Shown here in pieces: positions 4,915-52,193 of a stretch of 57,318 bases of DNA. The DNA comes from Tardiphaga sp. (GTDB taxonomy: Bacteria; Pseudomonadota; Alphaproteobacteria; Rhizobiales; Xanthobacteraceae). The translations under genes and the position numbers were made by a program. The stretch covers positions 1 through 57,318 of the forward strand of contig JASBVG010000036.1 in the NCBI GenBank assembly GCA_030147505.1, written 5' to 3'. Numbering within the stretch: position 1 is the stretch's first letter; each line of letters opens with the position of its first letter. Under the pieces are notes generated by a model. It did not search any database. It was not told the origin of the DNA and saw only the letters and a list, made by a program, of their open reading frames with translations.

Positions 4915-4917
4915 GAA

Positions 4918-5763
4918 CTACCGGCCCAGCGTCACCTTCTTCTCGTCCAATAACCGCACAAAATCATCGCTGGCCAGATACGCATATTCCCGTTCGCGCT
5001 GGTCGGTGAACGGATCGAGATCCACCAACACATCGTCCACATAACCGGGATGACACATCACCAGTCCGCCGTCCGGCAGGTCGTCGAGAAAACGCGTCAT
5101 CAACTCACCGAAATCCGGCGCCTTCGTGAAATCATAGGCACCGGCAAAGCCCGGATTGAATGCCACGCCGAGCTTTGCCGCACGCTTGCGAAACGTCGCA
5201 CTCAGCGTATCCAGTAGTAGCGCCTTCGGTGAATCCAGACGTTTCGACAGCGGATGGATGCGGCCGGACTGGCGCACCCAGGCCTCCGGCGCTCCGGCCT
5301 TCACCGCGCGCAAAAAGGGATCGCGCACCTGCGGAAACGTCTGCACATGCTGATGACCATCTACATAGGCCGGCGCCTGTCCGAACAGTGCGATGAACTT
5401 GGCGATCTGCGCCGATACTTCCGCTTGGATCATCTCGGCATCGAGCCGGCGCAGCGCGCCCGCCCGCAGCATCTTGCCGAGCGGCAGGAATAGTCCGTCC
5501 AGCAGTGGGCGATAATGCATGGTCAGCGGATGAAACGGCGCCGTCAGCGTGACATGCAGGCCGATGGCGCAGTCGCGATTCATCGCGAGAACGCCCTGTA
5601 GCGCGCTGACGTCATCTCGGGTGATCGCGGAGCCGACCACCATCACCGATGTCGCATTCAGCCGCTTGCGGGCGATCAATTCGCGAATGCCGCGATTGAC
5701 GCCGGGGCTCATGCCGTAGTCGTCGGCGCACAGCGTGATTCTGCGCGGCGCGGCACTGCTCAT
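4918..5763 (-). CDS. YdjC/ChbG/HpnK-family carbohydrate deacetylase
   Basis: 281 residues, the usual length for this TIM-barrel-like metal-dependent deacetylase family, which removes N-acetyl groups from sugars. Seen directly: metal-binding ADDYGMSPGVNRGI (residues about 13-26), GLHVTLTAP near 68, YVDGHQHVQTFPQ near 133 and MCHPGYVDD near 237. It overlaps the upstream glycosyltransferase by 4 bases (ATGA), so the two are translationally coupled. This suggests the deacetylase acts on a sugar that the glycosyltransferase attaches to a lipid or polyprenyl carrier. The closest annotated relatives I know are HpnK (hopanoid glucosamine) and ChbG. No hopanoid genes are visible here, so I give no symbol. 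Confidence 0.88.
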   Translation of the reverse strand: MSSAAPRRITLCADDYGMSPGVNRGIRELIARKRLNATSVMVVGSAITRDDVSALQGVLAMNRDCAIGLHVTLTAPFHPLTMHYRPLLDGLFLPLGKMLRAGALRRLDAEMIQAEVSAQIAKFIALFGQAPAYVDGHQHVQTFPQVRDPFLRAVKAGAPEAWVRQSGRIHPLSKRLDSPKALLLDTLSATFRKRAAKLGVAFNPGFAGAYDFTKAPDFGELMTRFLDDLPDGGLVMCHPGYVDDVLVDLDPFTDQREREYAYLASDDFVRLLDEKKVTLGR

Positions 5764-6830
5764 TCGGCGGCGGTCCGGTCAGGCGACGGCGTAGCCGCAG
5801 TCTCGGGTGTCGCAGCCGCGGCATCGGGCGCTGAATGCTTCACGCTGTGTTCGGCGATGAAATAGACCGGGCGCGCCTTCAGCTCGGACAGGATCTTGCC
5901 GATATATTCGCCGAGCACCCCGATCATGATGAGCTGCACACCGCCGATGGTCATCACGCCGACGATGATCGAGGGATAGCCGGGCACCGATTTGCCGTCG
6001 ACCATGGTCTCCCACAGGATCGAAATGCCGAACAGGAAAGCGGCGCCGGCGAACAGCAGGCCGAACAGGCTGGCGAGGCGCAGCGGTGCCACCGAGAACG
6101 AGGTGAGACCTTCGATCGACAGGCCGATCAGCGCCTTCGGATTGAATGACGATACGCCATGGGCGCGCGGTTGCGGTTCGTAATCGACGCGGAGCTGGCG
6201 GAACCCGATCCAGGTGGCGAGACCCTTGAAGAAACGATTCCGCTCCGGCAACTGCCGCAGCGCCGCTGCCGCGCGGGGCGAGAGCAGGCGGAAATCGCCG
6301 GCGTCTTCCGGGATCTTCTGGCGGGCGCCCCAGTTGATCAGAGAATAAAAGCCGCGCACGGCGAGGCGAAGCAGGACGCTTTCATTGTCGCGATGCGCCT
6401 TGGCGGTGAACACCACGTCATAGCCATCGACGATCCAGTGATGCACCAGCTTCTCGACGAATTCCGGCGGATGCTGGCCATCGCCATCCATGAACAGAAC
6501 CGCGCCCTTGGTGACATGGTCGAGGCCGGCCATCAGTGCGGCCTCCTTGCCGAAATTGCGCGACAGCGAGATCACCTGAACGTCGATGTCATCGGCTGGC
6601 AGCGTCTGCGCGATCTTCAGTGTGTCGTCGCGGCTGCCGTCATCCACATAGACGACCTCGCAGGCAACGCCGTAACGCGCCTTGAGCGTGCGGGCGAGGC
6701 TGATGAGCTTGTCGTGAAGCGCGGCAAGGCCGGGCGCTTCATTGTAGCAGGGCACGACCAGTGAAAGGCCCTGCGCCGCGGCAGTGCGCGAGTCGGTGGT
6801 GAGGTTGGAGACGTCAGTGCCCAGCATCAT
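5760..6830 (-). CDS. GT2 glycosyltransferase, ArnC/DPM1-like, membrane-anchored
   Basis: 356 residues. An N-terminal GT-A domain (about 20-240) contains LVVPCYNEAPGL, VYVDDGSRDDT, LSRNFGKEAALMAGL and MDGDGQHPPE (the metal/nucleotide DxD region). Two predicted membrane helices follow (ASLFGLLFAGAAFLFGIS, IIVGVMTIGGVQLIMIGVLG), then GEYIGKILSELKARPVYF, the standard tail of polyprenyl-phosphate sugar transferases (ArnC, GtrB, DPM1). It probably charges undecaprenyl phosphate with a sugar at the inner face of the membrane. The C-terminal 35 residues are a Pro/Ala-rich tail. It is the first gene of a two-gene operon with the deacetylase. Two ATGs in tandem (6830, 6827) are possible starts. Confidence 0.9.
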   Translation of the reverse strand: MMLGTDVSNLTTDSRTAAAQGLSLVVPCYNEAPGLAALHDKLISLARTLKARYGVACEVVYVDDGSRDDTLKIAQTLPADDIDVQVISLSRNFGKEAALMAGLDHVTKGAVLFMDGDGQHPPEFVEKLVHHWIVDGYDVVFTAKAHRDNESVLLRLAVRGFYSLINWGARQKIPEDAGDFRLLSPRAAAALRQLPERNRFFKGLATWIGFRQLRVDYEPQPRAHGVSSFNPKALIGLSIEGLTSFSVAPLRLASLFGLLFAGAAFLFGISILWETMVDGKSVPGYPSIIVGVMTIGGVQLIMIGVLGEYIGKILSELKARPVYFIAEHSVKHSAPDAAAATPETAATPSPDRTAAE

Positions 6831-6871
6831 CGAGTCGGATTCCCAATATATCCAGTCGCCGTCTACTCTGT

Positions 6872-6971
6872 CTGTTATCCCCGCGAAAGCGGGGATCCAG
6901 TAAACACTGACGGCAGCGATAAGCCGAGAGGCCGGCGTTTACTGGATCGCCGGTCAAGCCGGCCGATGACA
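6872..6971. repeat. Two-armed palindromic repeat (family 1)
   Basis: CTGTTATCCCCGCGAAAGCG with GGGGATCCAGTAAAC forms one arm, and GTTTACTGGATCGCCGGTC with AAGCCGGCCGATGACA the other. It lies between hisG (its stop at 7020) and the glycosyltransferase operon. A short piece reading GCCTCGCTGCGCTCCTCGC follows at 6983. Confidence 0.88.
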
Positions 6972-7019
6972 ATCGAGTGTGCTGCCTCGCTGCGCTCCTC
7001 GCAATGCCGACGAAATATC

Positions 7020-7994
7020 TTACCGCAAAAACGCTTCGAGCTTTGCGAATAGCGGATTTTCGCGATCCAGCACGTAATCGAGCGATGCGACCGAGACGGT
7101 CTCTGCACCGTGGTCGCGCAAAAAACTGCCGAGCGCATAGATCTGCGCCGGGGGGCAATGCAGCGTCACCATGCCGGATGACGTCGGTCCGCCGAAAGGC
7201 GATACCACGCCGAAGCGGTTGTGTGCTTCGTCGAGCAACGCCTGATTGCAGCCGGCGAAGCGCGTGCGCACTTCCTTGTATTTGCTGGCGCGCGCACGTG
7301 CGGCGATGTGATCGAGGATGACGCGCGCCGTCTCGCGTGCGGCCGGCGACCAGTCGGCATGGCGCGAGGCGACGAGATTGGCCTGGCTGCGCAGCATCAC
7401 GCCGTCGTCGAGCACCTTGAGCCCGTTGGCCGCCAGCGTTGCCCCAGTCGTGGTAATGTCGACGATCAACTCCGCCGCACCGGTGGCCGGTGCGCCTTCC
7501 GTGGCGCCGGCACTTTCGACGATGCGATAATCCATCACGCCGTGTGACGCGAAATAGGCGCGGGTGAGGTTGATATATTTCGTTGCCACGCGCATGCGCC
7601 GGTCATGCTTGTCGCGAAAGCCGGTCGCGACATCGTCGAGATCCGCCATGGTGCGCACGTCGATCCACGCCTGCGGTACGGCGACCACGACATCGGCGCG
7701 GCCGAAGCCGAGGCCTTCGATCAGCGCCACGCGCTTGTCGGTGTCGACGATGTTCTCACGCAGGAGGTCTTCGCCGGTGATGCCGAGATGCACGGCACCG
7801 CGCGCGAGGTTCGCTGCGATCTCGCTGGCGGAGAGATAGGCGATCTCCACATTGTCGAGCCCGGTAATGGTGCCGCGATAGTCACGCGCACCGCCGGCCT
7901 TGGTCAGCGTGAGACCGGCGCGGCTGAAGAAGGCTTCGGCATTTTCCTGCAGGCGTCCCTTGGAGGGAACGGCAACGACGAAAGGTGAAGTCAT
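7020..7994 (-). CDS. hisG: ATP phosphoribosyltransferase, catalytic subunit
   Basis: 324 residues. Catalyses the first step of histidine synthesis, ATP plus PRPP to phosphoribosyl-ATP. Seen directly: N-terminal [30 protein letters not shown], and the PRPP-binding loop [17 protein letters not shown] near residue 178. The C-terminal about 90 residues (from [18 protein letters not shown]) look like a regulatory ACT-like domain, which short HisG proteins lack. It overlaps hisZ by 4 bases (7991-7994), so the two are coupled. Its 3' end meets a family-1 palindrome. Confidence 0.95.
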
Positions 7995-9118
7995 GACGCG
8001 TCTCCCGCGCGAATGGAGAACGCGTCGATCCAGATCGAGAAGCCGACGGCAGGAATGGGATTGGGGGCACCGAGCTGTGACAGAAGCCTGTCGTAGCGAC
8101 CGCCTGCGACCAGCGGCGGTTCGATACCACTGCCGACGCCGTGCAATTCGAATTCGAAGCCGGTGTAGTAATCGAGCCCGCGGCCGAAGGCGGTGGCGAA
8201 TTTGATCTTGGCCGTATCGATGCCACCTGCGGCCATGAAGCCGATGCGCTGTTCGAACTCGTCGATCGCCGCAGTGAGATCGAGCTTGGCATCCGCTGCC
8301 AGCTTGCGCAGCTCGGCAACCGCATCATCGGGCGCGCCCGATATGGCGAGGAAGCGCTTGATCAAAGCCAGTGCATCCTTGGGCAGTGCGCCACCCTTGA
8401 GAGTCGACTGCTCGAGAAAACGATCGGCGATTTCCGCGACGGAACGGCCGCCGAGATTGGTTGCCCCGGCAATCGACATCAGGTCGGTGACCAGCGCCAG
8501 CGCGGCCTTGCGATCGGAGCCGGCGAGGGCGGCGAGCACGCCCTCATACTCGTTGCGGACGGGCGACTCGGCGAGGGTGAGGCGGTCGAGGTCCTCGGCG
8601 AGGTTCGCCTGGCGGTTGAAGTCTTTCGTCAGGCGGCGCTTCCAGACCGGATAGAGGTCGAGCGCCTCGATCAGGGCGGCGAACAGCGCGACGTCGCCCG
8701 TCTTGATTTCGACGCTGGGTTGCCCCAGTGCGGCCGCAGCATTCAGCGCCAAAACGAGCATCTCAGCATCCGCAGCGGCGCGATCCTGACGGCCGAACGA
8801 CTCGATCCCCGCCTGCTGAAATTCGCTAGCTTTTCCATGACGATAGCGGAAAACCGGGCCGAGATAGCTGAACCCGGCCGGCTGCCCGGCCTGTTTCGAG
8901 GCGAGATAATCGCGCGCCACCGGGATCGTCAGATCCGGCCGCAGGCACAATTCCTCGCCCGTCAGGTCGGTGGTCAGATACAAGCTCTTGCGGATGTCTT
9001 CGCCGGAGAGGTCCAGAAACGGCTCGGCCGGCTGCAAAATCGCCGGCGACGCATGGACATAGCCCGCCTCGGCAAACGAGGTCAGCAAGGTGTCCGTCCA
9101 GGCGGCGGGTTTTATCAT
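7991..9118 (-). CDS. hisZ: ATP phosphoribosyltransferase regulatory subunit
   Basis: 375 residues from the ATG at 9118. An in-frame TTG at 9139 is an alternative start, and neither has a strong ribosome-binding site. It is a HisRS-like paralogue without aminoacylation activity that forms a complex with HisG. Seen directly: class II motif-2-like [17 protein letters not shown] and [11 protein letters not shown], and motif-3-like [15 protein letters not shown] near the end. Against true HisRS the protein is short and lacks the C-terminal anticodon domain. It overlaps hisG by 4 bases. The complete HisRS gene is at 49265, so the two are clearly separate paralogues. Confidence 0.93.
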
Positions 9119-27271: not shown

Positions 27272-27431
27272 AAAGTTCGTTTCCTGCGCAAAACTCTGCT
27301 ACGGAGTGGCATTCAGCAAAGAGGATACCGGTTTCGCGTGACGTTTGCGCCCGATGAGCGCGCAATGTCGATCCGCAACCCCCATCCGCACCGCTCAACC
27401 CAATTCAGCTTCCGCTGCAGCGAGACCTTTC

Positions 27432-29564
27432 ATGCCCCGCGATAACGATAAAAACAACGGCCCCTCGCGCGGCCGGCCTTCCGGCGGCAGAGGCCCGGGC
27501 AAGGGTCCGAGCAAAGGCGGCCGTTCCGGCGCCGCTCGCGGCCCGGAGAAGAAGTTCGCCAAGCGCGACGGTAGCTACACGCCGCGCCCCCCGCGTGACG
27601 GCGACGGCGAGAAACGCTCCTTCGCCGGCAAGCGTGACGGTGATCGCGCGCCGCGCCGCGACTATGGCGATGCGCCGCGCCCGCGTTTCAATCGCGAGGA
27701 TCGCCCAGCGCGCAGCGAGGGCGATCGTCCGTCGCGCGGTCCGCGCAAGGAGTTCGGGGATCGTCCGCCGCGTCGTGATCGCGACGATGCGCGTCCGGCG
27801 GGGCGCTTCTCGGAGAAGAAATTTGGCGAGCGCAAGCCGCGTGATGGCGACCGTCCTTTCGGTTCGCGCCCGTCGCGCGACGGTGATCGTCCGCGTGGTG
27901 ATCGCCCGTTCGGCGACCGCAAGTCGCGTGATGGCGATCGTCCTTTCGGTTCGCGCCCATCGCGCGACGGTGATCGTCCGCGCGGTGACCGCCCGTTCGG
28001 TGACCGTAAGCCGCGCGACGGCGGCGGTGAAAAGCGGGCTTATGCGCCGCGCGGTGATCGTCCGCAGGGTGACCGGCCATTTGGCGAGAAGAAGTTTTCG
28101 CGCGGTGCGCCGGATCGCGGGGGGCCGCGCAAGAGCTTCGGTGGTCGTGGTGATCGTGACTTTGAACGTGGCCCCGACCGCAGCGATGAGAAGCCGTGGC
28201 AGAACCGCAAACGCGGCGATGATCGTGGCAGCCGTCCGGCGCGTGCCCCGCGCGATGGCGAGCGCAAGTTTGATAGACCGAAATTCGACAAGCCGCGTTT
28301 CGAGCGCTCGCGTGATGATCGTCCCGAGCGCGGCGATGGCGAACGTCCGCGCTTTGAACGCTCGCGTGAGGACCGTCCGCAATTCGAGCGGTCACGCGAA
28401 CCCCGCGGTCGCGCGGACTGGCAGGAGCAGCCGCGCCGTGGGCGCGAAAGCGATCGTGATGAGCGTCCGCGCCGCGACAATGAGGACGATAGCCAGATCT
28501 TCCGCCAGCGTCCGGCCTTCGGTGGCCGCGGCGAATATCGTCCGCGTGATCCCGATGCGAAGAAGGCACCGCGCAAGCCTGTCGAGAAGAAGGGTGCAGA
28601 GCGCATCGCCAAGGTTGTCGCCCGCGCCGGCCTGTGCTCGCGCCGCGACGCGGAGGAGTGGGTGACCCAAGGCCGCGTCTCGGTGAATGGCCGCAAGATC
28701 AATTCGCCTGCGCTCGACGTCACCGCCAATGACGTGATCACCGTAGACGGCAAGCCGTTGCCGGAGCGGGAGCGCACGCGGCTGTTCATGTATCACAAGC
28801 CGCGCGGCTTGATGACGACCCATGCCGATCCGGAAGGCCGGCCGACGGTGTTCGAACATCTGCCGGAAGACCTGCCGCGTCTGATCTCCATCGGCCGTCT
28901 CGACTTCAACACCGAAGGTCTGTTGCTGCTCACCAATGATGGCGGCCTCGCGCGTACACTCGAGTTGCCAGACACCGGCTGGCTGCGCCGCTACCGCGTC
29001 CGCGCCCATGGCAATGTCACCCAGGCGCAGCTCGACGAGCTGAAGAACGGGGTCGAGGTCGACGGCGTGAAGTATGGTGCCATCGATGCAACACTGGAAC
29101 GCGACCAGGGCGCCAATGTCTGGCTGGTGTTTGCGATCCGCGAAGGCAAGAACCGCGAAGTGCGTAACGTCTGCGCCCATCTCGGCCTTGAGGTGAACCG
29201 CCTGATCCGTATCTCCTACGGCCCGTTCCAGCTCGGCGAGCTGGCGGAAGGCGAGGTGGACGAGGTGAAAACGCGCGTGCTGCGCGAGCAGCTCGGCGAA
29301 AAGATCGCTGAAGCCGCCGGTGCCGATTTCGGTCGCCAGCTGCCGAGCAAGGGCGACGTTTCGCTTGATCCGGTGGTTGTCAAGAAGCCGGTGATGAAGC
29401 GCTCCTCGGTGGAGGACCGCAAGGGGCGCCGCGTCGTCGTGCAGCGTACCGGCTCGGAGAAATCCCGCGCGCGCAACGAGGCCGAGGCCCTGTTCGACGG
29501 TCCGAAGAAGCCACCGAAGCGGGGCTACAAGGGCAAGCGCGATATCAAGCCGCGGGACGAGTGA
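27432..29564 (+). CDS. RsuA/RluB-family pseudouridine synthase with very long disordered N-terminal arm
   Basis: 710 residues, against about 250-300 for the family core. Residues 1-385 are low-complexity and Arg/Gly/Asp/Pro-rich (units such as GDRPFGDRK and RDGDRP), probably disordered and RNA-binding. The S4 domain starts near 386: RIAKVVARAGLCSRRDAEEW, VTQGRVSVNGRKI. The catalytic domain follows with MYHKPRGLMTTHADPEGRP, the active-site Asp in GRLDFNTEGLLLLTNDG near 500, RRYRVRAHG and REGKNREVRNVCAHLGLEVN. A basic Lys/Arg tail (about 640-710) closes it. It most resembles RluB, which modifies 23S rRNA position 2605, but assigning RluB rather than RsuA/RluE/RluF needs comparison. The start is at the ATG at 27432. 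Confidence 0.92.
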   Translation: MPRDNDKNNGPSRGRPSGGRGPGKGPSKGGRSGAARGPEKKFAKRDGSYTPRPPRDGDGEKRSFAGKRDGDRAPRRDYGDAPRPRFNREDRPARSEGDRPSRGPRKEFGDRPPRRDRDDARPAGRFSEKKFGERKPRDGDRPFGSRPSRDGDRPRGDRPFGDRKSRDGDRPFGSRPSRDGDRPRGDRPFGDRKPRDGGGEKRAYAPRGDRPQGDRPFGEKKFSRGAPDRGGPRKSFGGRGDRDFERGPDRSDEKPWQNRKRGDDRGSRPARAPRDGERKFDRPKFDKPRFERSRDDRPERGDGERPRFERSREDRPQFERSREPRGRADWQEQPRRGRESDRDERPRRDNEDDSQIFRQRPAFGGRGEYRPRDPDAKKAPRKPVEKKGAERIAKVVARAGLCSRRDAEEWVTQGRVSVNGRKINSPALDVTANDVITVDGKPLPERERTRLFMYHKPRGLMTTHADPEGRPTVFEHLPEDLPRLISIGRLDFNTEGLLLLTNDGGLARTLELPDTGWLRRYRVRAHGNVTQAQLDELKNGVEVDGVKYGAIDATLERDQGANVWLVFAIREGKNREVRNVCAHLGLEVNRLIRISYGPFQLGELAEGEVDEVKTRVLREQLGEKIAEAAGADFGRQLPSKGDVSLDPVVVKKPVMKRSSVEDRKGRRVVVQRTGSEKSRARNEAEALFDGPKKPPKRGYKGKRDIKPRDE
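27841..28014 (+). repeat. 87-base tandem repeat, two copies, inside the pseudouridine synthase gene
   Basis: The second copy starts at 27928, exactly 87 bases (29 codons) after the first, and the copies differ at scattered, mostly third-position bases. The encoded unit contains GDRPFGSRPSRDGDRPRGDR followed by PFGDRK. Further, more degenerate GDRP units surround it, suggesting the arm grew by in-frame duplication. Confidence 0.9.
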
Positions 29565-38836: not shown

Positions 38837-39334
38837 TCAGGGCGCTTTTACGGCGGGTGCGCCGAAGAAGGAGTCATACAGCAGAGCCGCCACACCGGCA
38901 ACGATGGCGACATCCGCAAGGTTAAACACGTACCAGTTGTAGGTTTTTCCAGCGATTTCGGCGTGCAGCAGCGCAAAATCCACCACGGCGCCATAGGCGA
39001 AGCGGTCGATGGCATTGCCGATCGCGCCGCCGATGATCAGACCGAGTGCAATTGTCGCAAGGCGCGTTTCGGCGCGGACCATCCAGACGGTGAGGGCGAT
39101 CACCGCCACGATTTTGAAGGCGACCAGCAGAACCTGGCCGGTCGGTCCGGAATCCGAGAACATGCCGTAGCTGATGCCGGTGTTCCAGGCGAGGATCAGG
39201 TCGAAGAAGGGCAGCACCTTCACCACCCCGCGCCGGCCGAGATCGAAGCCGTGAAGTAGCCACAGCTTGGTGGCCTGATCCAGGATCAGGGTCGTCACGG
39301 CGACGATCAGGCCGGTGCGGGCGGCTGGGCTCAC
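38837..39334 (-). CDS. lspA: Lipoprotein signal peptidase LspA
   Basis: 165 residues. Aspartic protease that removes signal peptides of prolipoproteins in the inner membrane. The start is the GTG at 39334, overlapping the ileS stop by 4 bases (GTGTGA); longer frames run into ileS. Seen directly: four hydrophobic segments ([76 protein letters not shown]) and the catalytic pair in [15 protein letters not shown] and FNLADVAI. Substrates in this window include the lipoprotein at 1197. Confidence 0.96.
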
Positions 39335-42318
39335 ACGGTCACTCCCAGCGCCTTCCATTCGCGCAGCGCCTGCGCGTCGCGCGGGGTGACGTCCGGATAC
39401 TCCTTGTCCTCGCCCACTGTCGGCAGGATCTTCCAGGATCGTGCGCATTTGGCGCCGACGGCCTTCTCGACGACAACGCCGACGCCGGGCACGTCATGCA
39501 GCTTGAATGCATCGGACGGAGCTTCGCCTTCGCGCACTTCATAGCTCGAGGTGATGCAGACCTCAGCCAGATCGATGTCGAACAGCGTCGCGATCAGCGC
39601 GCGGTCCGCCACATAGATCACCGGTGAGGCTTCCAGCGACGAGCCGATCTTCTTGGCCGCACGTTCCAGCTCCAGCGCGCCGGTGACGACACGGCGCACA
39701 TCGCGGATCGTTTCCCACTTCGCAGCGAGTTCGTCATTGCGCCAGGCTGCGAGCACGTTCTGGAATGGCTGCAGATGGACCGAGGTCTCCGCGGCGCCAT
39801 AACGCGACAGCCACGCCTCTTCCGCAGTGAAGCTGAGGATCGGCGCGAGCCATGTCACGATGGAGCGGAACAGATAATCGATCACCGTGAGCGACGATTT
39901 ACGCGCCACAGAGGAAGGCGGATCGCAATACAGCATGTCCTTGCGGATATCGAAGTAGAATGCCGACAGTTCGGTGTTCATGAAGGCCGCCAGTGTCGCC
40001 ACCACGGTCTTGTAGTCGAACTCCGCATAAGCGCGCCGCACGATCGCATCGACCTCGACCAGCCGGTGCAGCATCAGCCGCTCCAGTTCGGGCATGTCGT
40101 CGGCCTTGACGCGGTCTTCGTCGCGGAAATGCGCGAGGCTGCCCAGCATCCAGCGCACGCTGTTGCGCAGCTTGCGATAGGTCTCGATGGTGTTCTTGAG
40201 GATTTCCGGGCCGATGCGCTGGTCGTCGGCATAATCGGTGGCGCAGACCCACAGGCGCAGGATGTCGGCGCCGGAATCCTTGATCACCTTCTGAGGTTCG
40301 ATGGTGTTGCCGAGCGACTTCGACATCTTGCGGCCGTTCTCGTCCAGCGTGAAGCCGTGGGTCAGCACGACGTCATACGGCGCGCGGCCGCGCGTGCCGC
40401 AGCTTTCCAGCAGCGACGAATGGAACCAGCCGCGATGCTGGTCCGAGCCTTCGAGATACATGACGGTATCGGTGCCGCCGTCGACCTTGCGCTTGATGCC
40501 GGCAAGGCCGGGGAAGTGCACGGGGTCTTCGAGCACGAAGGCATGGGTCGAGCCCGAGTCGAACCAGACGTCGCAGATGTCGTCGACTTTCTGCCATGCC
40601 TCATTGGACAGCGAGCCGAGGAAACGCTCGCGCGCACCTTCCGCATACCAGGCATCGGCGCCTTCCTTCTCGAAGGCATCGGCGATGCGCGCGTTCACCG
40701 CGTCGTCCTGCAGGATCTCGGCGGAGCCGTCGCCATTCTCGCGCACGAACACGGCAATCGGTACGCCCCAGGCACGCTGGCGCGAGATCACCCAGTCCGG
40801 GCGGCCGGCGATCATGCCGGTGATGCGGTTCTGGCCGGCCGCCGGCACCCACTGGGTGACGGAGATCGCCTGCAGCGACCGCGCACGCAGCGTGTCGCCG
40901 GACTTCGCAACGCCGTTGTCCGCGATATCCTTGTCCATCGCGATGAACCATTGCGGCGTGTTGCGATAGATCACCGGCTTCTTCGAGCGCCACGAATGCG
41001 GATACTGGTGCTTGAGGCGCGCACGCGCCACCAGCATGCCGCGCGCGACCAGTTCCTTGATCACGGCCTCGTTGGCATCGCCCTTCTCGCCCTTGTCGTT
41101 GAGCACACGTGTGCCTGTGAAGCCCGGCGCCGCTTCGGTCAGCGTGCCGTTCTCGTCGACGGTGTAGGGGATGGTGGTGGCGATGCCGCGTTCGGTGAGC
41201 TGGCGGCCGTTCGACGTCCAGATGTCGAAGTCGTCGCGGCCGTGGCTGGGTGCGGTATGCACGAAGCCGGTGCCGGCGTCGTCGGTGACATGATCGCCGT
41301 CGAGCAGCGGCACGATGAAGTCATAGCCGCCGGCCAGGCCCTTGAGCGGATGGCGGCATTCGAGATCCTCGAGGATGTCGGACGACAGCTCGCTGCTCTT
41401 CTTGAACGACGTCACGCGCGCCTGCTTGAACACGCTCTCGGCGAGCGCATCGGCGAGGATCAGCAGGTCGCCGGTCTTCAGCCAGTTGTCCTCCGGCGCC
41501 TCGGTGACCTCATAAAGGCCATAGGCGATCTTTGAGGAGAACGAGATGGCACGGTTGGCAGGCAGCGTCCATGGCGTGGTGGTCCAGATGACGACCGATG
41601 CCTTGGCGAGGCGGCCGAACTCGGCCGCAACCGGGAATTTCACCCACACCGCGTCCGACGTGTAGTCCTCGTATTCCACTTCGGCCTCGGCCAGCGCGGT
41701 CTTCTCGACCACGCTCCACATCACCGGCTTGGAGCCGCGATACAGCGTGCCATTGGCGGCGAACTTCATCAGCTCGCGCGCGATCTGCGCTTCGGCGAAA
41801 TAGTCCATGGTGGCATAGCGGCCGGCCCAGTCGCCGATGATGCCGAGGCGCTTGAATTCCTCGCGCTGGATGTCGAGCCACTTGTTGGCATAGGCGCGGC
41901 ATTCCTGGCGGAACGCGATCATCGCCGCGCCGTCCTTGAAGTTCGGCTTGGTCTTGCCCTTGGAGCGGTAGTTCTCTTCCTCGATCTTCCACTCGATCGG
42001 CAGGCCGTGGCAGTCCCAGCCCGGCACATAGTTGCTGTCGAAGCCCAGCATCTGCTGGCTCTTGGTCACCACGTCCTTGAGGATCTTGTTGAGGGCATGG
42101 CCGATATGGATCTGGCCGTTGGCATAGGGCGGGCCGTCATGCAGCACGAATTTCGGCTTGCCCTTGGCGCTCGCGCGCAGCTTGCCGTAGAGGTCGATCT
42201 CGTTCCAGCGCGCCAGCATCTTGGGCTCGCTGGCGGGCAGGCCGGCCCGCATCGGGAACTCGGTCTGTGGCAGGTAAAGGGTCTTGGAATAGTCGTGAGC
42301 GTCGGTCTTGTCGGACAT
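39331..42318 (-). CDS. ileS: Isoleucyl-tRNA synthetase IleS
   Basis: 995 residues, full length. Charges tRNA-Ile. Seen directly: HIGH motif [20 protein letters not shown] near residue 67, [14 protein letters not shown], editing-domain blocks [15 protein letters not shown] and [17 protein letters not shown] near 355, and KMSKS in [16 protein letters not shown] near 665. The usual C-terminal zinc-binding Cys cluster of bacterial IleRS is not evident: only one Cys is seen near the end (KCARSW). Overlaps lspA by 4 bases at its 3' end. Confidence 0.97.
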
Positions 42319-45757: not shown

Positions 45758-47227
45758 TCAGTTCGGACCGGTGGCGCGGCGGGCCAGGGCAGCGAGGCCG
45801 CCATTGCGGGGCGGTTCGCCCCGCGGGGCGGCGCTGGCTGAGCGTGCCGGGCTCACGGTACCGGTTGGAGCGTTGTTGGATGACGTGCTGGCTGAAGCTG
45901 CCGCGGTTCCGTTAGCAGCCGGGGTTTCCGGGCGCAACGGCCGCGGCGCGGCGAACAGGAAGCCCTGGCCGAAACGGACGTCGAAATCCAGCAGATCGAC
46001 CACCGAGCGCTCGCCCTCGATGCGATCGGCGATCAGGTCGATGCCGAAGCGGCCAAGCAGGTCCGACAGGTCACCGGCATGGATGTCGGAGAGCGAGGCC
46101 TGTTTCGGATCGAGCAGCAGCGCCGCCGGCACCTTGATGTAGCGCACGCCGCGGTCCGCGAGTTCGCGCGCATCGATGCGCAGATCGGTCACGTGATCGA
46201 TGGAGAAGCGATAGCCGCGCTGGGCAAGGGCGGCGAGATGCTCGCTCTCCACCGGGCCGAGATGGCGGAAGGTGCTGTGCTTGAATTCGAGCACGAAGGA
46301 GGGCGCCAGCGCGCGATTGGCGTCGAGGAAATCGATGAATTGCGCAAAGGCGGTTTTGTCCGACAGCGTGGACTTGGCCACATTGCAGAACACGCCGACA
46401 TCCTTGTTGCGCACCATCAGGCGGCGCAGCACCTGCATGCTGCGCAGGAGCACGCTGTGGTCGATCTCCTGCATGAAACCCGCGTCCTCCGCGGGACCGA
46501 TGAAGTCGTCGGCGACGATGATCTGGTCCGTGTCGTCGCGCAGGCGCGAGATCGCCTCATAGAAACGCACCTTGCGCTGCGGCAGCGTCACCACCGGCTG
46601 CAGATAGATATCGATGCGGCTCTCGTTGATGGCGCGGCGGATCGTGTTGACGAATTGCATGTCGTTCTTCGGCGGCACGATCACCGCCGGTGCGGCCGCA
46701 GGCGTCAGGGTGTCCTCGGCGATGTCGACCGCAAGCGGCATCTCCGGCATTGCGCTCAAGACCCTGACGGAAGGGGCGGGCGGCGCGATGGCTGTCGGCA
46801 CGTGCGCCGGAGCGGGCGGGATGGCAGCCAGCATGTCGTCATGGGCGGCCACGGAGCTGGCGAGCTGCCGCATCATCGCGCCGAGTTCGCCGATCTCGCC
46901 CATCACGCCCTGGATGCGATCCTGATGGGCCGTGTTCGACGCATTCAGCTTGGCCTCGAGCGCGGCGAGACGGCGGCCATATTCGGCGACCTGGCGGGCG
47001 AGGTCGGTGGTGCCGCGGGAGAGATCGGAAATCTGGCCCGAGGCCTCGGCGCGGTCTTTGATGCGCATCGACACCGCATTGTAGAGGATCATGATCGTCA
47101 GCGCGGCGAGGCTGACAATGGCCGCTTCCTGGCCGGGGATTTTCGCCACCAGATGAAGAACCGCGCCGAGCGAGGCCGCGATCAACGTCATGCAGATGCC
47201 GACGAATATCGTAGAGATGCGAATCAT
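45758..47227 (-). CDS. Membrane EAL-domain protein, degenerate active site
   Basis: 489 residues from the ATG at 47227 (TTG at 47251 possible). Two N-terminal membrane helices (IFVGICMTLIAASLGAVLHL, EAAIVSLAALTIMILY) are followed by a coiled coil (about residues 70-125), a Pro/Ala linker, then an EAL-like domain (about 205-435). Motif comparison: EAL reads YEAISRL, the Asn of NVAKSTL is kept, LEFKHS keeps Glu, DDFG-T is replaced by IDHVTDL (second Asp lost), IKVPAALL keeps Lys, and FGQGFLFAAP is kept. Loss of the DD pair suggests reduced or absent c-di-GMP phosphodiesterase activity, so it may be a c-di-GMP sensor. The last 65 residues are Ala/Ser/Pro-rich. Confidence 0.88.
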   Translation of the reverse strand: MIRISTIFVGICMTLIAASLGAVLHLVAKIPGQEAAIVSLAALTIMILYNAVSMRIKDRAEASGQISDLSRGTTDLARQVAEYGRRLAALEAKLNASNTAHQDRIQGVMGEIGELGAMMRQLASSVAAHDDMLAAIPPAPAHVPTAIAPPAPSVRVLSAMPEMPLAVDIAEDTLTPAAAPAVIVPPKNDMQFVNTIRRAINESRIDIYLQPVVTLPQRKVRFYEAISRLRDDTDQIIVADDFIGPAEDAGFMQEIDHSVLLRSMQVLRRLMVRNKDVGVFCNVAKSTLSDKTAFAQFIDFLDANRALAPSFVLEFKHSTFRHLGPVESEHLAALAQRGYRFSIDHVTDLRIDARELADRGVRYIKVPAALLLDPKQASLSDIHAGDLSDLLGRFGIDLIADRIEGERSVVDLLDFDVRFGQGFLFAAPRPLRPETPAANGTAAASASTSSNNAPTGTVSPARSASAAPRGEPPRNGGLAALARRATGPN

Positions 47228-47368
47228 GACGCGCGCGGCACCCTGGTCCAAAGGTTCTTATGCGGCGGGCGGGCTTGGACGGCCGCCGCTAAATATAGCG
47301 CCAGCTTACCATTATTGCTGATTCGGAAACGAGGTCTCGCCGCGATGCAGCAGGTGCTTTTGCACCGC

Positions 47369-48463
47369 TTAAGTGCCGGCCCGGCCCAGCGTATCCGCCA
47401 TGGTGGCGCCGCCGGTCGCCATCGGGCGCCCGGAGCCGACGGTGGTGTCCGTGGCGGTCTGATGCTCGATCTCGGCGTTCAGTTCCGCCCCGCACAGGAC
47501 GATGATGGCCGACATCCACATCCACGTCATCAGGCCGATGGCGGCGCCGAGCGAGCCATAGGTGGCGTCGTAATTGCCGAAATTGGACAGATACCAGGAC
47601 AGCAGCAGCGAGCCGGCGAGCCAGAGCGCGGCGGCGGCGATGGTGCCGATGCTCAGCAATTCCCAGCGCGCGCCGGGGCGGCTCGGGCCGAACCGATAGA
47701 GCAGGCCAAGCGCGAACATCACCACCAGCAGCACCAGCGGCCAGCGTGCAAAACTCACCAGCAGCTTGCTGTCTTGCGCGAGGCCGATCCGGTCCATCGC
47801 CAGCGGAAACGCCACGACGGCACTGACCATCAGCAGCAGCGCTGCAATGCCTCCGCAGGTGAAGGCAAGGGAGAGCGCATTGAGCCTGATAAAACTGCGC
47901 TTCTCGCGCTCGTCATAGACGACATTGAGCGCGTCGATGACAGCCTTCACGCCGGCATTGGCGCTCCATAGGGCCAAAGCGATGCCGAACAGGAAGGTCA
48001 AGCCGAGGCTCGCCGACCCCTTGGCGAGCACGCGGGCGATCTGGTCCTGAACGATCTGATAGGAGCCGGCCGGCAGCACCATGGCCAGCGTCTTCAGATT
48101 GTCAGAGATGGTCGAGGCATCGGCGAACAGGCCGTAGCAGGAGACCAGCGCGGTGATCGCCGGAAACACGGCGAGCAGGCCGTAAAACACCACGCCGGCG
48201 GCTATGGCCAGCAGGCGGTCGTCATTGATCTGCTCATAGGTGCGCCAGAGGATGTCCTTCCAGCCGACGCGCGGGATGTCGAGCGGCGTGGTGGAATCCC
48301 GGCCACGATCGGGCTGCGCATGTCCGATGACAGAGGGCCGCAGCTTCCTTTGGTCGTGATCCTGGCGTTCGGTTGAAGTGGCCAGGCTCTGCACGGCGAG
48401 CACGGTGGCCGTCGTGGCGGCAACGAGCCACAGGCTTTCTACATCGATCCGGCGACGGCGCAT
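47369..48463 (-). CDS. YihY/BrkB-family integral membrane protein
   Basis: 364 residues. The family was misnamed ribonuclease BN. Start at the ATG 48463, overlapping the stop of the upstream gene (TGATG). An N-terminal segment (RRRRIDVESLWLVAATTATV) is followed by the core: GWKDILWRTYEQINDDRLLA, IAAGVVFYGLLAVFPAITAL, SCYGLFADASTISDNL, LGLTFLFGIALALWSANAGV and MTWMWMSAIIVLCGAELNAE, about six membrane helices. It probably moves or transports a small molecule or ion; the substrate is unknown. Encoded with a DUF1469/holin-like protein. Confidence 0.9.
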   Translation of the reverse strand: MRRRRIDVESLWLVAATTATVLAVQSLATSTERQDHDQRKLRPSVIGHAQPDRGRDSTTPLDIPRVGWKDILWRTYEQINDDRLLAIAAGVVFYGLLAVFPAITALVSCYGLFADASTISDNLKTLAMVLPAGSYQIVQDQIARVLAKGSASLGLTFLFGIALALWSANAGVKAVIDALNVVYDEREKRSFIRLNALSLAFTCGGIAALLLMVSAVVAFPLAMDRIGLAQDSKLLVSFARWPLVLLVVMFALGLLYRFGPSRPGARWELLSIGTIAAAALWLAGSLLLSWYLSNFGNYDATYGSLGAAIGLMTWMWMSAIIVLCGAELNAEIEHQTATDTTVGSGRPMATGGATMADTLGRAGT

Positions 48464-49056
48464 CAGCTGTCTGCTTTGGCCTGCTTGCGCGGTGGGATGA
48501 TATCCTTGGCCAGCTGGTGACGGCGCGTCAGCGCCCAACCGGCCAGCGTTGCTGCTAAAAGCAATCCGGCCTTCAGCGGCCCATTGTCGCCGCTTGCCGG
48601 CTTGCGTGGACGTGACGCCGTGCTCGGCTTGAATTCGGCACGCTGGGTTGTCCGCGGTGCGGGTGATGTCGGTTGCCGGGCGGGCGTCGCGTTTACAGCG
48701 ACCCGCAACCGGCTGCTCAATGTTGGAAACTGTCGCGATGGCTTCTTCAGCCGGGCGGCCGCAAGTCCGGCGAAGATCACCGCGAGCAGCAGCAACAGGC
48801 CGCCGGTCACGCCGAAAGCCGGAAACAACCCATATTTGATTTCGACCCAGCGAAACAGGGCGGCAGCACCGACCAGCAGCGTCGCGATCAGGAAAATGCC
48901 CGCGGCGGCATAGAGGCCCGCGGCGGTGGCGTAGGAGACGGCGATGCCTGCACCCTGCTCGCCGCGGTCGCGCATATAGGACGATGCGGCGCGTTTGACC
49001 TGATCGAATTTGAGCGCCAGACCGGTGCGGGCGAGTGCGCTGACGAGCGGTGGCAT
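48463..49056 (-). CDS. DUF1469/holin-superfamily-III-like membrane protein
   Basis: 197 residues. N-terminal half has an amphipathic region (LALKFDQVKRAASSYMRDRG) and two hydrophobic helices (GLYAAAGIFLIATLLVGAAA, AFGVTGGLLLLLAVIFAGLA), the layout of the small Phage_holin_3_6 family, then a disordered Pro/Thr/Arg-rich part and a last hydrophobic segment (LLLAATLAGWALTRR). Despite the name, such proteins are chromosomal and not lysis proteins. It is translated just before the YihY protein with stop/start overlap, which suggests a shared membrane task. Confidence 0.85.
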   Translation of the reverse strand: MPPLVSALARTGLALKFDQVKRAASSYMRDRGEQGAGIAVSYATAAGLYAAAGIFLIATLLVGAAALFRWVEIKYGLFPAFGVTGGLLLLLAVIFAGLAAARLKKPSRQFPTLSSRLRVAVNATPARQPTSPAPRTTQRAEFKPSTASRPRKPASGDNGPLKAGLLLAATLAGWALTRRHQLAKDIIPPRKQAKADS

Positions 49057-49264
49057 GAGGAAGCCTCGTTCTTGTCCCGGCGAGGTGCGCCGGTGTCGAA
49101 AAAGGAACGAGCACCAAAAGGGTTGGTTCCGCCGCTCGCCGGAGGCCCATCACGGCTCCCTTTCAGCTTGCTTTGGCGAGATGGGGATCGCCACGCGCGC
49201 ATAGCTGCCAGCGCGGTCCATGCCGGTTCTTGCCGGTTCCTGCCGGCGCTGGTACCACCCCGGC

Positions 49265-50872
49265 ATGACCGACAAACCCAAAAAACCGCAAAAACTCCGT
49301 GCGCGCCTGCCGCGCGGCCTCGGCGACCGTGGACCGGCGGATATCGCCGCGACCCGGCGCATGACCGATACCATTCGCGAGGTCTATGAGCGCTACGGCT
49401 TCGAGCCGGTCGAGACCCCGACCATGGAATTCACCGATGCGCTCGGCAAATTCCTGCCCGATCAGGACCGGCCGAACGAGGGCGTGTTCTCGTTCCAGGA
49501 CGATGACGAGCAGTGGATCTCGCTGCGCTACGACCTGACCGCGCCGCTCGCCCGCTATGTGGCGGAGCACTGGGACGCGCTACCAAAACCTTATCGCAGC
49601 TACCGCGCCGGTTACGTTTATCGCAACGAGAAGCCCGGTCCCGGCCGTTTCCGCCAGTTCATGCAGTTCGACGCCGACACGGTGGGCTCCGGCTCGCCCG
49701 CGGCCGATGCCGAGATGTGCATGATGGCGGCTGACACGATGGAAGCCCTCGGGATCCCGCGCGGCAGCTACGTGGTGCGCGTCAATAATCGCAAGGTGCT
49801 CGACGGCGTGATGGAGAGCATCGGCCTCGGCGGCGAAGACAATGCCGGCAAGCGCCTCACGGTGCTGCGCGCGATCGACAAGATGGACAAGTTTCCGGAA
49901 GCCGAAATCAAGAAGTTGCTCGGTTCCGGCCGCTGGGATGGCGGCGAGGAGGGCAAGGGCGACTTCACCAAGGGCGCCGGGCTCTCGGAAGATCAAATTT
50001 CTGAGTTGATGGTATTTCTCTCTGCGACAGCCGATGTGTCGGTTGACGAGCGGTCGCTTAGTGAATGGAGCGCTCTCGACTGTGTCTCATTGGAGACAAC
50101 GGCAGGCCGAGGCTTGGGCGTGACTAACGAGGCGACGATCGAGAAATTTCGTAGTTGGTTTGACAACTCGGGGACCTATCGACAAGGGCTTGATGAACTG
50201 TTGGAGATTTCTCGTTTAGCTACCTCTGCCGGATATGGCACTCGTCGTATCAGCATCGCTCCTTCGGTCATTCGCGGTCTCGAATACTACACCGGTCCCG
50301 TCTACGAGGTAGAACTCCTCCTCGAAGCCAAGGACGAAAAAGGACGCCCGGTCCGCTTCGGTTCGGTCGGCGGCGGCGGTCGTTACGATGGCCTCGTGTC
50401 GCGCTTCCGTGGCGAGCCGGTGCCAGCCACCGGCTTCTCCATTGGCGTGTCGCGCCTGCAGGCGGCGCTGACGTTGCTCGGCAAGATCGATACGAAGCAG
50501 CAGGCTGGTCCCGTCGTTGTCACCGTGTTCGGCGGCGAGATCGCGGATTATCAGGCGATGGTCGCCAAACTGCGCTCAAGCGGCATCCGCGCCGAGCTTT
50601 ATCTCGGCAATCCCAAGCATGCGCTCGGTCAGCAGATGAAATATGCCGACAAGCGCAACTCGCCGCTCGCCATCATCCAGGGTTCGGATGAGAAGGCCGG
50701 CGGCAAGCTCCTGATCAAGGATCTGATCGCGGGGGCCGGTCTCACCGAGATCAAGGACCGCGAGGAATATCTGAAGAAGCAGGCCGAGGCGCAGATCGAG
50801 ATCGCGGAGAGCGATCTGGTGAGCGCCGTGAAGACGCTGCTGGTCAAGCACGGCGTGAGCTGGAGCGCTTGA
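49265..50872 (+). CDS. hisS: Histidyl-tRNA synthetase HisS
   Basis: 535 residues from the ATG at 49265 (an earlier ATG at 49220 is less typical). Charges tRNA-His. Seen directly: [20 protein letters not shown], class II motif 1-2 region [20 protein letters not shown] and [20 protein letters not shown] near residue 120, the HisRS signature [14 protein letters not shown] near 337 and [16 protein letters not shown] near 370, and a C-terminal anticodon-binding domain ([16 protein letters not shown] onward). The middle part (residues about 240-358, bases 49981-50340) is strikingly low in GC and uses rare codons, unlike its flanks; the reading frame is intact. See findings. The protein is of the alphaproteobacterial type. 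Confidence 0.95.
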
Positions 50873-50962
50873 CCGTAGGGCGGATTAGGCGAAGCCGTAA
50901 TCCGCCGGCCGAGCTTGTGAGACGAAGAACGGCGGATTACGCTTCGCTAATCCGCCCTACGG
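50873..50962. repeat. Inverted repeat CGTAGGGCGGATTA type (family 3)
   Basis: CCGTAGGGCGGATTA at the left end pairs with TAATCCGCCCTACGG at the right, with internal partly paired GGCGAAGCCGTAATCCGCC and GGCGGATTACGCTTCGC. It begins directly at the hisS stop codon and separates it from the tautomerase gene by about 36 bases. Confidence 0.9.
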
Positions 50963-50997
50963 CAGAGTCCATTTGAAGAAGAAACGAGGAGACACCA

Positions 50998-51309: not shown

Positions 51310-52101
51310 TCACCCGAACACAGCCACATTCTGCCGGCTCGCCATTATCGGCGTGCCCTTGCGATTCCACAGCGTCATCGCCTGGCTCGAATAGCCGACG
51401 GCGATCTGCTCGGCCCTGTTGTGGATCAGCCACCAGCCGTCATCGGTCGTGACTTCATCCGTCAGCATGTCGATCGACCACGTCATCGTTGAGAGCGGCG
51501 ATGGCGCCTTCGAGCGCGCCGACGCAGCCGGCGGCGGCGCATCGGCGAGCGCCAGCAAAGCGACCAGTGATGGCGCGATGCCGGGCTCGCGGTGACGCAG
51601 CCACAACGACATCTGCGGATCCTCGCTGCCGCTGAAGGGCGGCGAGCCCGAGACGAAACGCCCGTCGATATGCTGCACGAAACTCAGCGTCGCCGGCGCA
51701 TTGGCGAAGAAGTTCGGGCAGCTCTCCGGATCCTTCAGCTCCGGCGTGCCGATCGCCACATGGCTGAACGCTGACTCGCGCGCCGCGCCGAAGCAGAACA
51801 TCGCGCGCGTGGCGAGCCCTGCCTCGCCGACGAGATCCACATTGGCGAACAATGTCGACTTGCCCTTGCGCAGCACGGTGGCCGTGAGCTGCAACGGCCC
51901 CGCGGCCGGCCCGATGAAGGCGATCTGCGCGGAGCGGAGCGGGGGCACGCTGCCAAATTCATTTAGCGCCGCCTGCATGCACAGCGCGGAGCCGAGCCCT
52001 CCATAGACGGTGCGCCCCTGCAGCCAGTCGTCGCTGACGCTGACGGACCAGCTGTCGCCGGACCGGATCATGCCGGCCATCAATGCGGTGAATTCAGTCA
52101 T
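51310..52101 (-). CDS. Acyl-CoA thioesterase family protein (double hotdog)
   Basis: 263 residues. Two hotdog domains in tandem as in TesB-like thioesterases: N-terminal block SWSVSVSDDWLQGRTVYGGL, GSALCMQAALNEFG and AQIAFIGPAAGPLQLTATVL; C-terminal block MSLWLRHREPGIAPSLVALL, LADAPPPAASA and WSIDMLTDEVTTDDGWWLIH, where the Asp and the helix end are typical of the family's active region. It probably releases free acid from acyl-CoA; chain length cannot be read. It starts divergently towards the DUF3617 gene, with a palindrome between. Confidence 0.88.
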   Translation of the reverse strand: MTEFTALMAGMIRSGDSWSVSVSDDWLQGRTVYGGLGSALCMQAALNEFGSVPPLRSAQIAFIGPAAGPLQLTATVLRKGKSTLFANVDLVGEAGLATRAMFCFGAARESAFSHVAIGTPELKDPESCPNFFANAPATLSFVQHIDGRFVSGSPPFSGSEDPQMSLWLRHREPGIAPSLVALLALADAPPPAASARSKAPSPLSTMTWSIDMLTDEVTTDDGWWLIHNRAEQIAVGYSSQAMTLWNRKGTPIMASRQNVAVFG

Positions 52102-52193
52102 GCGTCGTTTCCCCGAACGTTCCTTGTTGAATGATTATCGTCATCTATAGCGGGGAAAGCGGGGAGGGGGAATATGCGGGGGCGCCTACACTT

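Follow-up and report, generated by a model that had tools for sequence, protein, structure and literature searches.

The hisS locus

The window, i.e. the whole stretch of 57,318 nucleotides of Tardiphaga sp. that was analysed, contains a hisS gene whose reading frame is open from an ATG at either 49220 or 49265 through the stop codon ending at 50872 (the alternative in-frame ATG at 49220 would add 15 aa to the protein). The product was identified as a histidine--tRNA ligase by its match to TIGR00442 (355.9 bits, above the cut-off of 286.75), and it contains the Pfam domains tRNA-synt_His and HGTP_anticodon. A Foldseek comparison with the PDB supported the class II core fold of histidyl-tRNA synthetase (HisRS): 49 of the 50 listed hits were HisRS chains and the remaining one was the HisRS-like domain of GCN2, with TM-scores by query length of only 0.40-0.52 and a poor N-terminal part of the model. 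This HisRS, which bears a variable cassette (V) in its insertion domain, is encoded in one copy in the query genome. The features discussed below are as follows.

49265..50872, + strand: hisS, alphaproteobacterial-type histidyl-tRNA synthetase, 535 aa (TIGR00442, Pfam, ORF list)
49265..49978, + strand: conserved N-terminal flank, comprising the catalytic core and the first half of the insertion domain (91-99% identity to eight Tardiphaga sequences)
49979..50272, + strand: variable cassette V, spanning aa 239-336, with AT-rich silent sites and replaced relative to sister species (GC3, boundaries, incongruent trees, classes)
50021..50170, + strand: cassette core, aa 253-302, predicted to form three strands and a short helix (AlphaFold2 models of long and short alleles)
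50171..50227, + strand: constant helix closing the cassette, aa 303-321, AT-rich at silent sites (AlphaFold2 models; GC3)
50273..50869, + strand: conserved C-terminal flank with catalytic motifs and the anticodon-binding domain (Pfam, nucleotide identity)
39334..42318, - strand: control gene, a class I aminoacyl-tRNA synthetase (I/L/M/V group) whose least conserved 50-aa window has an identity of 0.42-0.70 to three sisters

Inspection of the alignment by eye revealed two types of anticodon-binding domain within the genus (window positions 50513-50725), reading GGE-IADYQ...KHALGQQ and DRDRVADYQ...K-SMGNQ. A long inverted repeat, also read by eye, lies directly after the hisS stop codon, at 50873-50965 (GTAGGGCGGATTA...TAATCCGCCCTA), and is possibly an intergenic palindromic element or a terminator.

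Composition and boundaries of the AT-rich segment

The initial annotation had described a sharply bounded, low-GC and codon-shifted segment of hisS at 49981-50340. Its G+C counts per 60-base line proved exact (45 for the line at 49921, then 28, 33, 34, 29, 34 and 32, and 43 for the line at 50341), and the reading frame does run unbroken through the segment. The codon shift was likewise recovered: among 98 segment codons vs 437 flank codons, TTG occurs 4 vs 2 times, TTA 1 vs 0, TCT 4 vs 0, AGT 2 vs 0 and CGT 4 vs 5, all five being commoner per codon in the segment. The GC3 of the 98 codons between the motifs GDFTKGA and RGLEYYTG is 0.53, compared with 0.83 before and 0.80 after them (52/98 vs 358/437 for the flanks; Fisher p = 1e-8), and the lowest value among 242 flank windows of 98 codons was 0.77. 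This low silent GC extends alike over the first 12 codons, the core and the last 38 codons of the segment (GC3 of 0.45 in this tail, with G or C at 10 of 22 fourfold sites), and is thus not caused by odd amino acids in the core. Since the constant helix (aa 303-321) is also AT-rich at silent sites, it probably moved together with the core. Low GC3 alone is nothing special, because three other ORFs among 35 in the window have a lower 80-codon minimum (0.44, 0.47 and 0.51 vs 0.53 in hisS).

The edges of the segment are indeed sharp, but they enclose about 49988-50272 and not the full length that had been proposed. The codons of the query and five sisters agree through 49987 and diverge from 49988. 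In windows of 15 codons, nucleotide identity to three sisters is 0.87-0.93 in the last window ahead of the change, has dropped to 0 by 50033 (a gap in the sisters accounts for part of this) and stands at 0.89 again at 50273, beyond which a weaker, minor patch of differences reaches to about 50345. When 53 long alleles were averaged, GC3 rose stepwise near RGLEYYTG, whereas on the left side it was already falling about 30 codons before the end of GDFTKGA, which indicates that in some species the exchange extends further to the left. The “foreign-like” composition assigned to the query is present, but it is shared: among the 177 distinct relatives, 163 have a GC3 in V below that of either flank (by at least 0.15 in 87 of the 177), and longer cassettes are more AT-rich (rho -0.56 over the 177).

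Different histories of the segment and its flanks

All 18 searched genomes of the genus contained a match to hisS (that in G015 was weak and partial), and the named close relatives of the query gene belong to Tardiphaga. Over the N flank (aa 1-237, compared in two parts) the query shares 91-99% identity with eight genus relatives, whose middle part barely aligns. Six sisters with N flanks 94-99% identical show 33-42% identity in the segment over only 24-26 alignable residues, and in five of the sisters the segment is short (56-61 aa vs 98 in the query) with a GC3 of 0.66-0.82. A search with aa 236-340 retrieved 20 proteins at E 0.001, including the query's own entry. Among these, 13 close proteins, one of them named Pseudorhodoplanes sp., were 66-72% identical over the whole region. 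Over aa 238-300, V is 62-70% identical to these 13 HisRS proteins (P0002-P0014, P0003 being that of Pseudorhodoplanes sp.), and the N flanks are 75-88% identical.

In trees of 35 rows, the query flanks were placed beside the sister L018 and the segment beside the relatives from other genera, for the 12 usable proteins of the 13 (P0004, which lacked a motif match, was left out of the flank and segment trees); several branches of the segment tree are long and were flagged by the tree tool. Congruence fails in both directions: a single clade of the query and its V class is rejected on the flank data (at a cost of 84 log-likelihood units, p-AU 3.7e-5), and a grouping of the query with Tardiphaga on the V data (77 units, p-AU 4.9e-5). 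The suggestion of a domain replacement is therefore borne out by the grouping of residues 239-336 with other genera and of the flanks with the genus, as both AU tests reject congruence. The opposite case, in which close relatives would share the patch and the topology of the flanks, does not hold, since sisters whose N flanks are 97-98% identical have a short segment of higher GC that is unrelated to the one in the query.

Exchange of the cassette is thus well supported. The query V branches beside the donor class and not inside it. This points either to an immediate donor outside the sample or to a polymorphism of long standing; the latter, if sorted within the genus, is just as possible as import in recent times. 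Some classes common to high-GC hosts (L004, L005, L106) retain a low GC3, and simple recent import does not explain this. With hisS of the query as probe, a silent store of cassettes was not seen in the query genome (G000), where the sole second match at E 0.001 was weak and covered aa 308-396 (at 8024-8269).

Cassette diversity among relatives

hisS genes were collected from the family and the order, one genome being sampled per species. Of 139 family genomes searched, nine lacked a match at 1e-60; of the 130 that had one, all but about 35 were included. After identical proteins had been collapsed and three loci dropped (L029, truncated; L033, a fragment; L206, with a motif missing), 177 distinct sequences were available. 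V is 56-139 aa long among them (54-139 aa when hisS genes from elsewhere in the class are added), and at 50% identity its core falls into 85 classes, 67 of which are singletons. The nearest neighbour by flank belongs to the same V class in 77 of the 177 cases. Closely related flanks tend to retain their V class: at N-flank identities of at least 0.97 (186 pairs), V-core identity is at least 0.6 in 91% of the pairs. At N-flank identities of 0.91-0.94 (415 pairs), V-core identity lies below 0.35 in 65%, and at 0.88-0.91 (984 pairs) it does so in 90%, with a median of 0.17; shuffled V cores give a mean of 0.15.

The genus-coded subset comprises 94 sequences from 35 genera. At least two classes were found in 18 of the 23 genera with at least two distinct hisS genes, and eight V classes occur in at least two genera. 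Cut-offs of 40, 50 and 60% yielded 43, 53 and 63 classes in this subset and 16, 18 and 18 mixed genera of 23; the class counts vary with the cut-off and the overall picture does not. With the 18 recurring classes (110 rows) mapped onto the flank tree, 32 changes are required vs 17 if each had a single origin. The same pattern is seen in the complete one-contig genomes G006, G010, G011, G013 and G017. The idea of a single transfer into the query thus gives way to that of a cassette polymorphic across the family. Among species representatives that share a species name, two pairs differ in V (L083/L116 and L064/L076, with N identities of 0.89-0.90 and V-core identities of 0.12-0.14) and two pairs do not (L071/L090 and L098/L100). 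Genome G014, which is flagged as 6% contaminated, contains two N-terminal copies of hisS (G014:C101 and G014:C173).

Comparison with other genes, lineages and mobile elements

Across 11 Tardiphaga genomes thrS keeps a mean pairwise identity of at least 0.80 in every 40-aa window, compared with a minimum of 0.02 for hisS. A codon-usage dip common to synthetases was considered and rejected, as it is absent from thrS of these 11 genomes and from the I/L/M/V-group synthetase of the window. In G001, G009 and G016 we noted an extra hit of the thrS family that covers model positions of about 164-169 to 563 only.

Each of the 46 window ORFs compared was matched in one or more of three sister genomes, and in each of these sisters hisS has the lowest scored 50-aa window identity of the 46 (0.10-0.12). 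The next lowest value (0.16-0.18 in two sisters) belongs to the frame 45896-47968, which lies opposite the ORF 45758-47251 and is probably spurious. A pseudouridine synthase (27342-29561) also has a variable N-terminal part (lowest 50-aa identity to the sisters of 0.20-0.28); its S4 and PseudoU_synth_2 domains occupy aa 416-609, behind a long N-terminal part. The neighbours of hisS are ordinarily conserved in the sisters, with mean identities of 0.72-0.80 (48466-49149) and 0.88-0.91 (51313-52134).

For comparison with other lineages, 114 genomes of the class were searched, and of 46 matches at 1e-20, 16 besides the query were close enough to be kept (15 of them belong to other orders within the class, and the remaining one, L302, to a different family within the order). 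In 11 of these 16 genes V is 69 aa long, with alignable sequence. The GC3 offset of V is -0.02 in the 16 controls vs -0.18 in the focal group, and at N identities of 0.7-0.8 V-core identity is 0.39 in the controls (15 pairs) vs 0.17 in the focal group (5472 pairs). A conserved V almost without a GC dip in these genes indicates that the phenomenon is a property of the focal lineage and not of the enzyme.

Mobile elements were examined as well. Among phage records, 18 gave a match, all below 60% identity and, as counted by the search tool, none with more than 80% of the query covered. At E 1e-60, a relative covering 80% or more of the query was present in 18 plasmid records, in 17 of them below 60% identity and in one at 60-80%. 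The 10 of these 18 records that were listed (H19-H28) include several plasmids of Sinorhizobium, Shinella, Methylobacterium and Rhodobacteraceae with alphaproteobacterial-type hisS, mostly larger than 0.8 Mb. A search of IMG/VR with two peptide patterns found one contig encoding an alphaproteobacterial-type HisRS (L217, IMGVR_UViG_3300025759_000462). This contig is phage-like and low in GC (36-46% in 600-base windows), with PhoH and endolysin genes; at 4917-7992 its hisS and tyrS are neighbours at 51-59% GC, as if the two had been captured together.

Predicted structure and constraint of the cassette

The AlphaFold2 model of the query gave mean pLDDT values for ten-residue blocks of 88-97 over aa 241-330 and 81 for aa 331-340. 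Within V it contains a helix (242-252), three strands, a helix (288-296) and a final helix (303-321). The model of the sister-type short allele passes from the first helix (242-252) through a short loop directly to the last helix (261-279), without the core strands and the short helix. The N-terminal catalytic part was poor in both models (several segments below 50), which makes the arrangement of the whole protein unreliable. In the HisRS of Nostoc (3net), the closest one with a solved structure, about 10 residues separate the two blocks that align locally. The predicted picture is that of a V core grafted between two constant insertion-domain helices (aa 242-252 and 303-321), with the cassette folding as a compact mini-domain.

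Within 16 classes, median pN/pS was 0.31 for the V core (range 0.07-0.61) vs 0.14 for the N flank; the V-core value was below 1 in all 16 classes and reached 0.57-0.61 in two of them. These are simple counts, with silent sites near saturation and with pN capped by the definition of classes by similarity. The pooled value for V was 0.22 over 410 pairs, 311 of which come from one class of 29. Within classes V is subject to purifying selection, though less strongly than the flanks, with a pN/pS about twice that of the flank. A disordered, drifting loop is disfavoured by the confident predicted fold together with pN/pS values below 1.

Cassette classes and tRNA-His

A second proposal of the initial annotation was that the patch could affect recognition of tRNA-His. 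The tRNA-His (GTG) of the query genome, as detected by ARAGORN, has G1 opposite U72 and ends in A73-CCA, and its A73 is that of the alphaproteobacterial (RRCH) HisRS/tRNA-His pair. The 77-base tRNA-His is identical in 10 of 61 genomes searched, the query included, and these ten genomes carry eight V classes, with V identities between classes of 0.05-0.35. Conversely, the V class of seven sequences around L018 occurs both with the identical tRNA-His (G010, G012, G013) and with a 96% identical one (G002, G009, G016). In other listed members of the genus the tRNA-His is 94-96% identical (the match in G007 is weak), and in other listed members of the family 91-96%. Since one and the same tRNA-His is found with eight classes, and one class with two versions of the tRNA-His, tRNA recognition is unlikely to be the driver.

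Discussion

We showed that hisS of this Tardiphaga strain carries a discrete segment whose history differs from that of its flanks, and that the same segment is polymorphic throughout the family. The explanation that we consider best, with a probability of about 0.47, is that the insertion-domain cassette (aa 239-336) was swapped in by recombination from another genus and is kept diverse by a putative phage protein or toxin. The cassette would have entered by homologous recombination between conserved flanks, from a donor of another genus, and its conserved ends may have acted as recombination handles. A putative phage protein or toxin would then bind the cassette surface, and new cassettes would gain an advantage by evading an antagonist that has adapted to the prevalent types (negative frequency dependence). 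We favour an antagonist because discrete, constrained, exchangeable and widely shared classes mark loci under rare-type advantage; both balancing selection and an antagonist of HisRS are inferred from this pattern.

Negative frequency dependence is known to favour new variants of restriction-enzyme specificity domains and of surface antigens. The target-recognition domains of HsdS likewise exist as discrete, unrelated alleles between conserved ends, which are exchanged between species and change the DNA specificity of a dispensable system. As in HsdS and other recombining polymorphic loci, hisS has unrelated alleles between conserved ends that are swapped between species, it yields conflicting trees for the segment and the flanks, and its alleles are common to several species and genera. 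Unlike HsdS, the host protein is a cytosolic tRNA synthetase, single in the query genome.

The nearest published idea that we found is that of segmentally variable genes, described in PMC387263 as combining well-conserved regions with a long variable segment. Aminoacyl-tRNA synthetases are discussed there (the example being the insertion domain of ProRS), and their variability is ascribed to tRNA recognition or editing (PMC387263). With a long variable segment between regions conserved across relatives, hisS belongs to this category. It differs from the synthetases discussed there in that it varies between sister species with 98% identical flanks, and in that its classes are discrete, common to several genera and uncoupled from the sequence of tRNA-His. 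According to PMC3937112, alphaproteobacterial (RRCH-clade) HisRS is of transferred origin and is associated with an unusual tRNA-His (A73, no templated G-1). The enzyme studied here is of the same type by kinship and has a tRNA-His with A73; the transfer described there concerned the gene in the ancestor of the clade (PMC3937112), whereas ours is a later, repeated replacement of one cassette. A precedent for an essential host protein as a phage target, and as part of immune sensing, is FtsZ, which is bound by T7 Gp0.4 and sensed by CapRel (PMC13423816); the abstract of that paper does not describe diversification of the host protein, and the partner of HisRS proposed here is putative.

Several other explanations were weighed. 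The site between the two insertion-domain helices might be a neutral one that tolerates any small segment, with recombination and drift acting in the absence of an antagonist. The peripheral position of V (about 10 residues in the Nostoc HisRS and 54-139 aa here) and its faster evolution than the flanks within classes (pN/pS up to 0.61) agree with this, but the same position holds 69 alignable residues in 11 of 16 hisS genes elsewhere in the class, pN/pS is below 1 in 16 of 16 classes, V is predicted to fold with high confidence, and drift alone does not account for near-random identity between sisters with 98% identical N flanks; we regard it as rather unlikely. Alternatively, each cassette might be a docking site for a lineage-specific cellular partner of a moonlighting HisRS, with the two travelling together. 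Constraint within classes, divergence between them and the predicted folding of V are what such a role would produce, yet the ORFs flanking hisS are ordinarily conserved in the sisters, and we judge this reading improbable.

Cassettes that follow changes in tRNA-His or its modification, and alter recognition, are less probable still. The identity of tRNA-His is unusual in this clade (A73, no templated G-1; PMC3937112), the query has A73, and the molecule is not constant everywhere (91-96% identity in the other family members listed); but eight classes share an identical tRNA-His, one class occurs with this and with a 96% identical version, the clade-wide change is old (PMC3937112), and hisS of the same type elsewhere in the class keeps V conserved. 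An old, intrinsically AT-rich domain, or a chimera of the assembly, is the least credible possibility. The dip in V relative to both flanks in 163 of 177 relatives would fit the former, which we reject because the sisters carry higher-GC short cassettes and the 16 hisS genes from elsewhere in the class are almost without a dip; moreover, it is the longer cassettes that are the more AT-rich ones. As regards a chimera, the query genome is indeed flagged as 7.64% contaminated, but complete genomes show the same pattern, the two junctions keep the reading frame of a gene that is Tardiphaga-like at either end, and the identical protein is present in the protein database on a contig of 803,646 bases, compared with the 57,318-base contig analysed here.

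Keyword searches of an open-licence PMC library listed no paper that describes a HisRS cassette as hypervariable or exchanged. Aminoacyl-tRNA synthetases are usually counted among the most stable genes. The wholesale swap of a folded segment beside an N-terminal catalytic part that is 98% identical between sister species implies a pressure on the translation machinery, with the cassette marking the surface on which it may be sought. More tentatively, and with some doubt, the insertion domain of HisRS might be a hidden arms-race surface, attacked by phages or injected toxins, from which the bacteria would escape by trading whole cassettes between genera. A housekeeping translation enzyme would then possess allele diversity like that of restriction specificity domains or surface antigens. 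Where hisS of these bacteria is used as a phylogenetic marker, the V segment should be cut out first.
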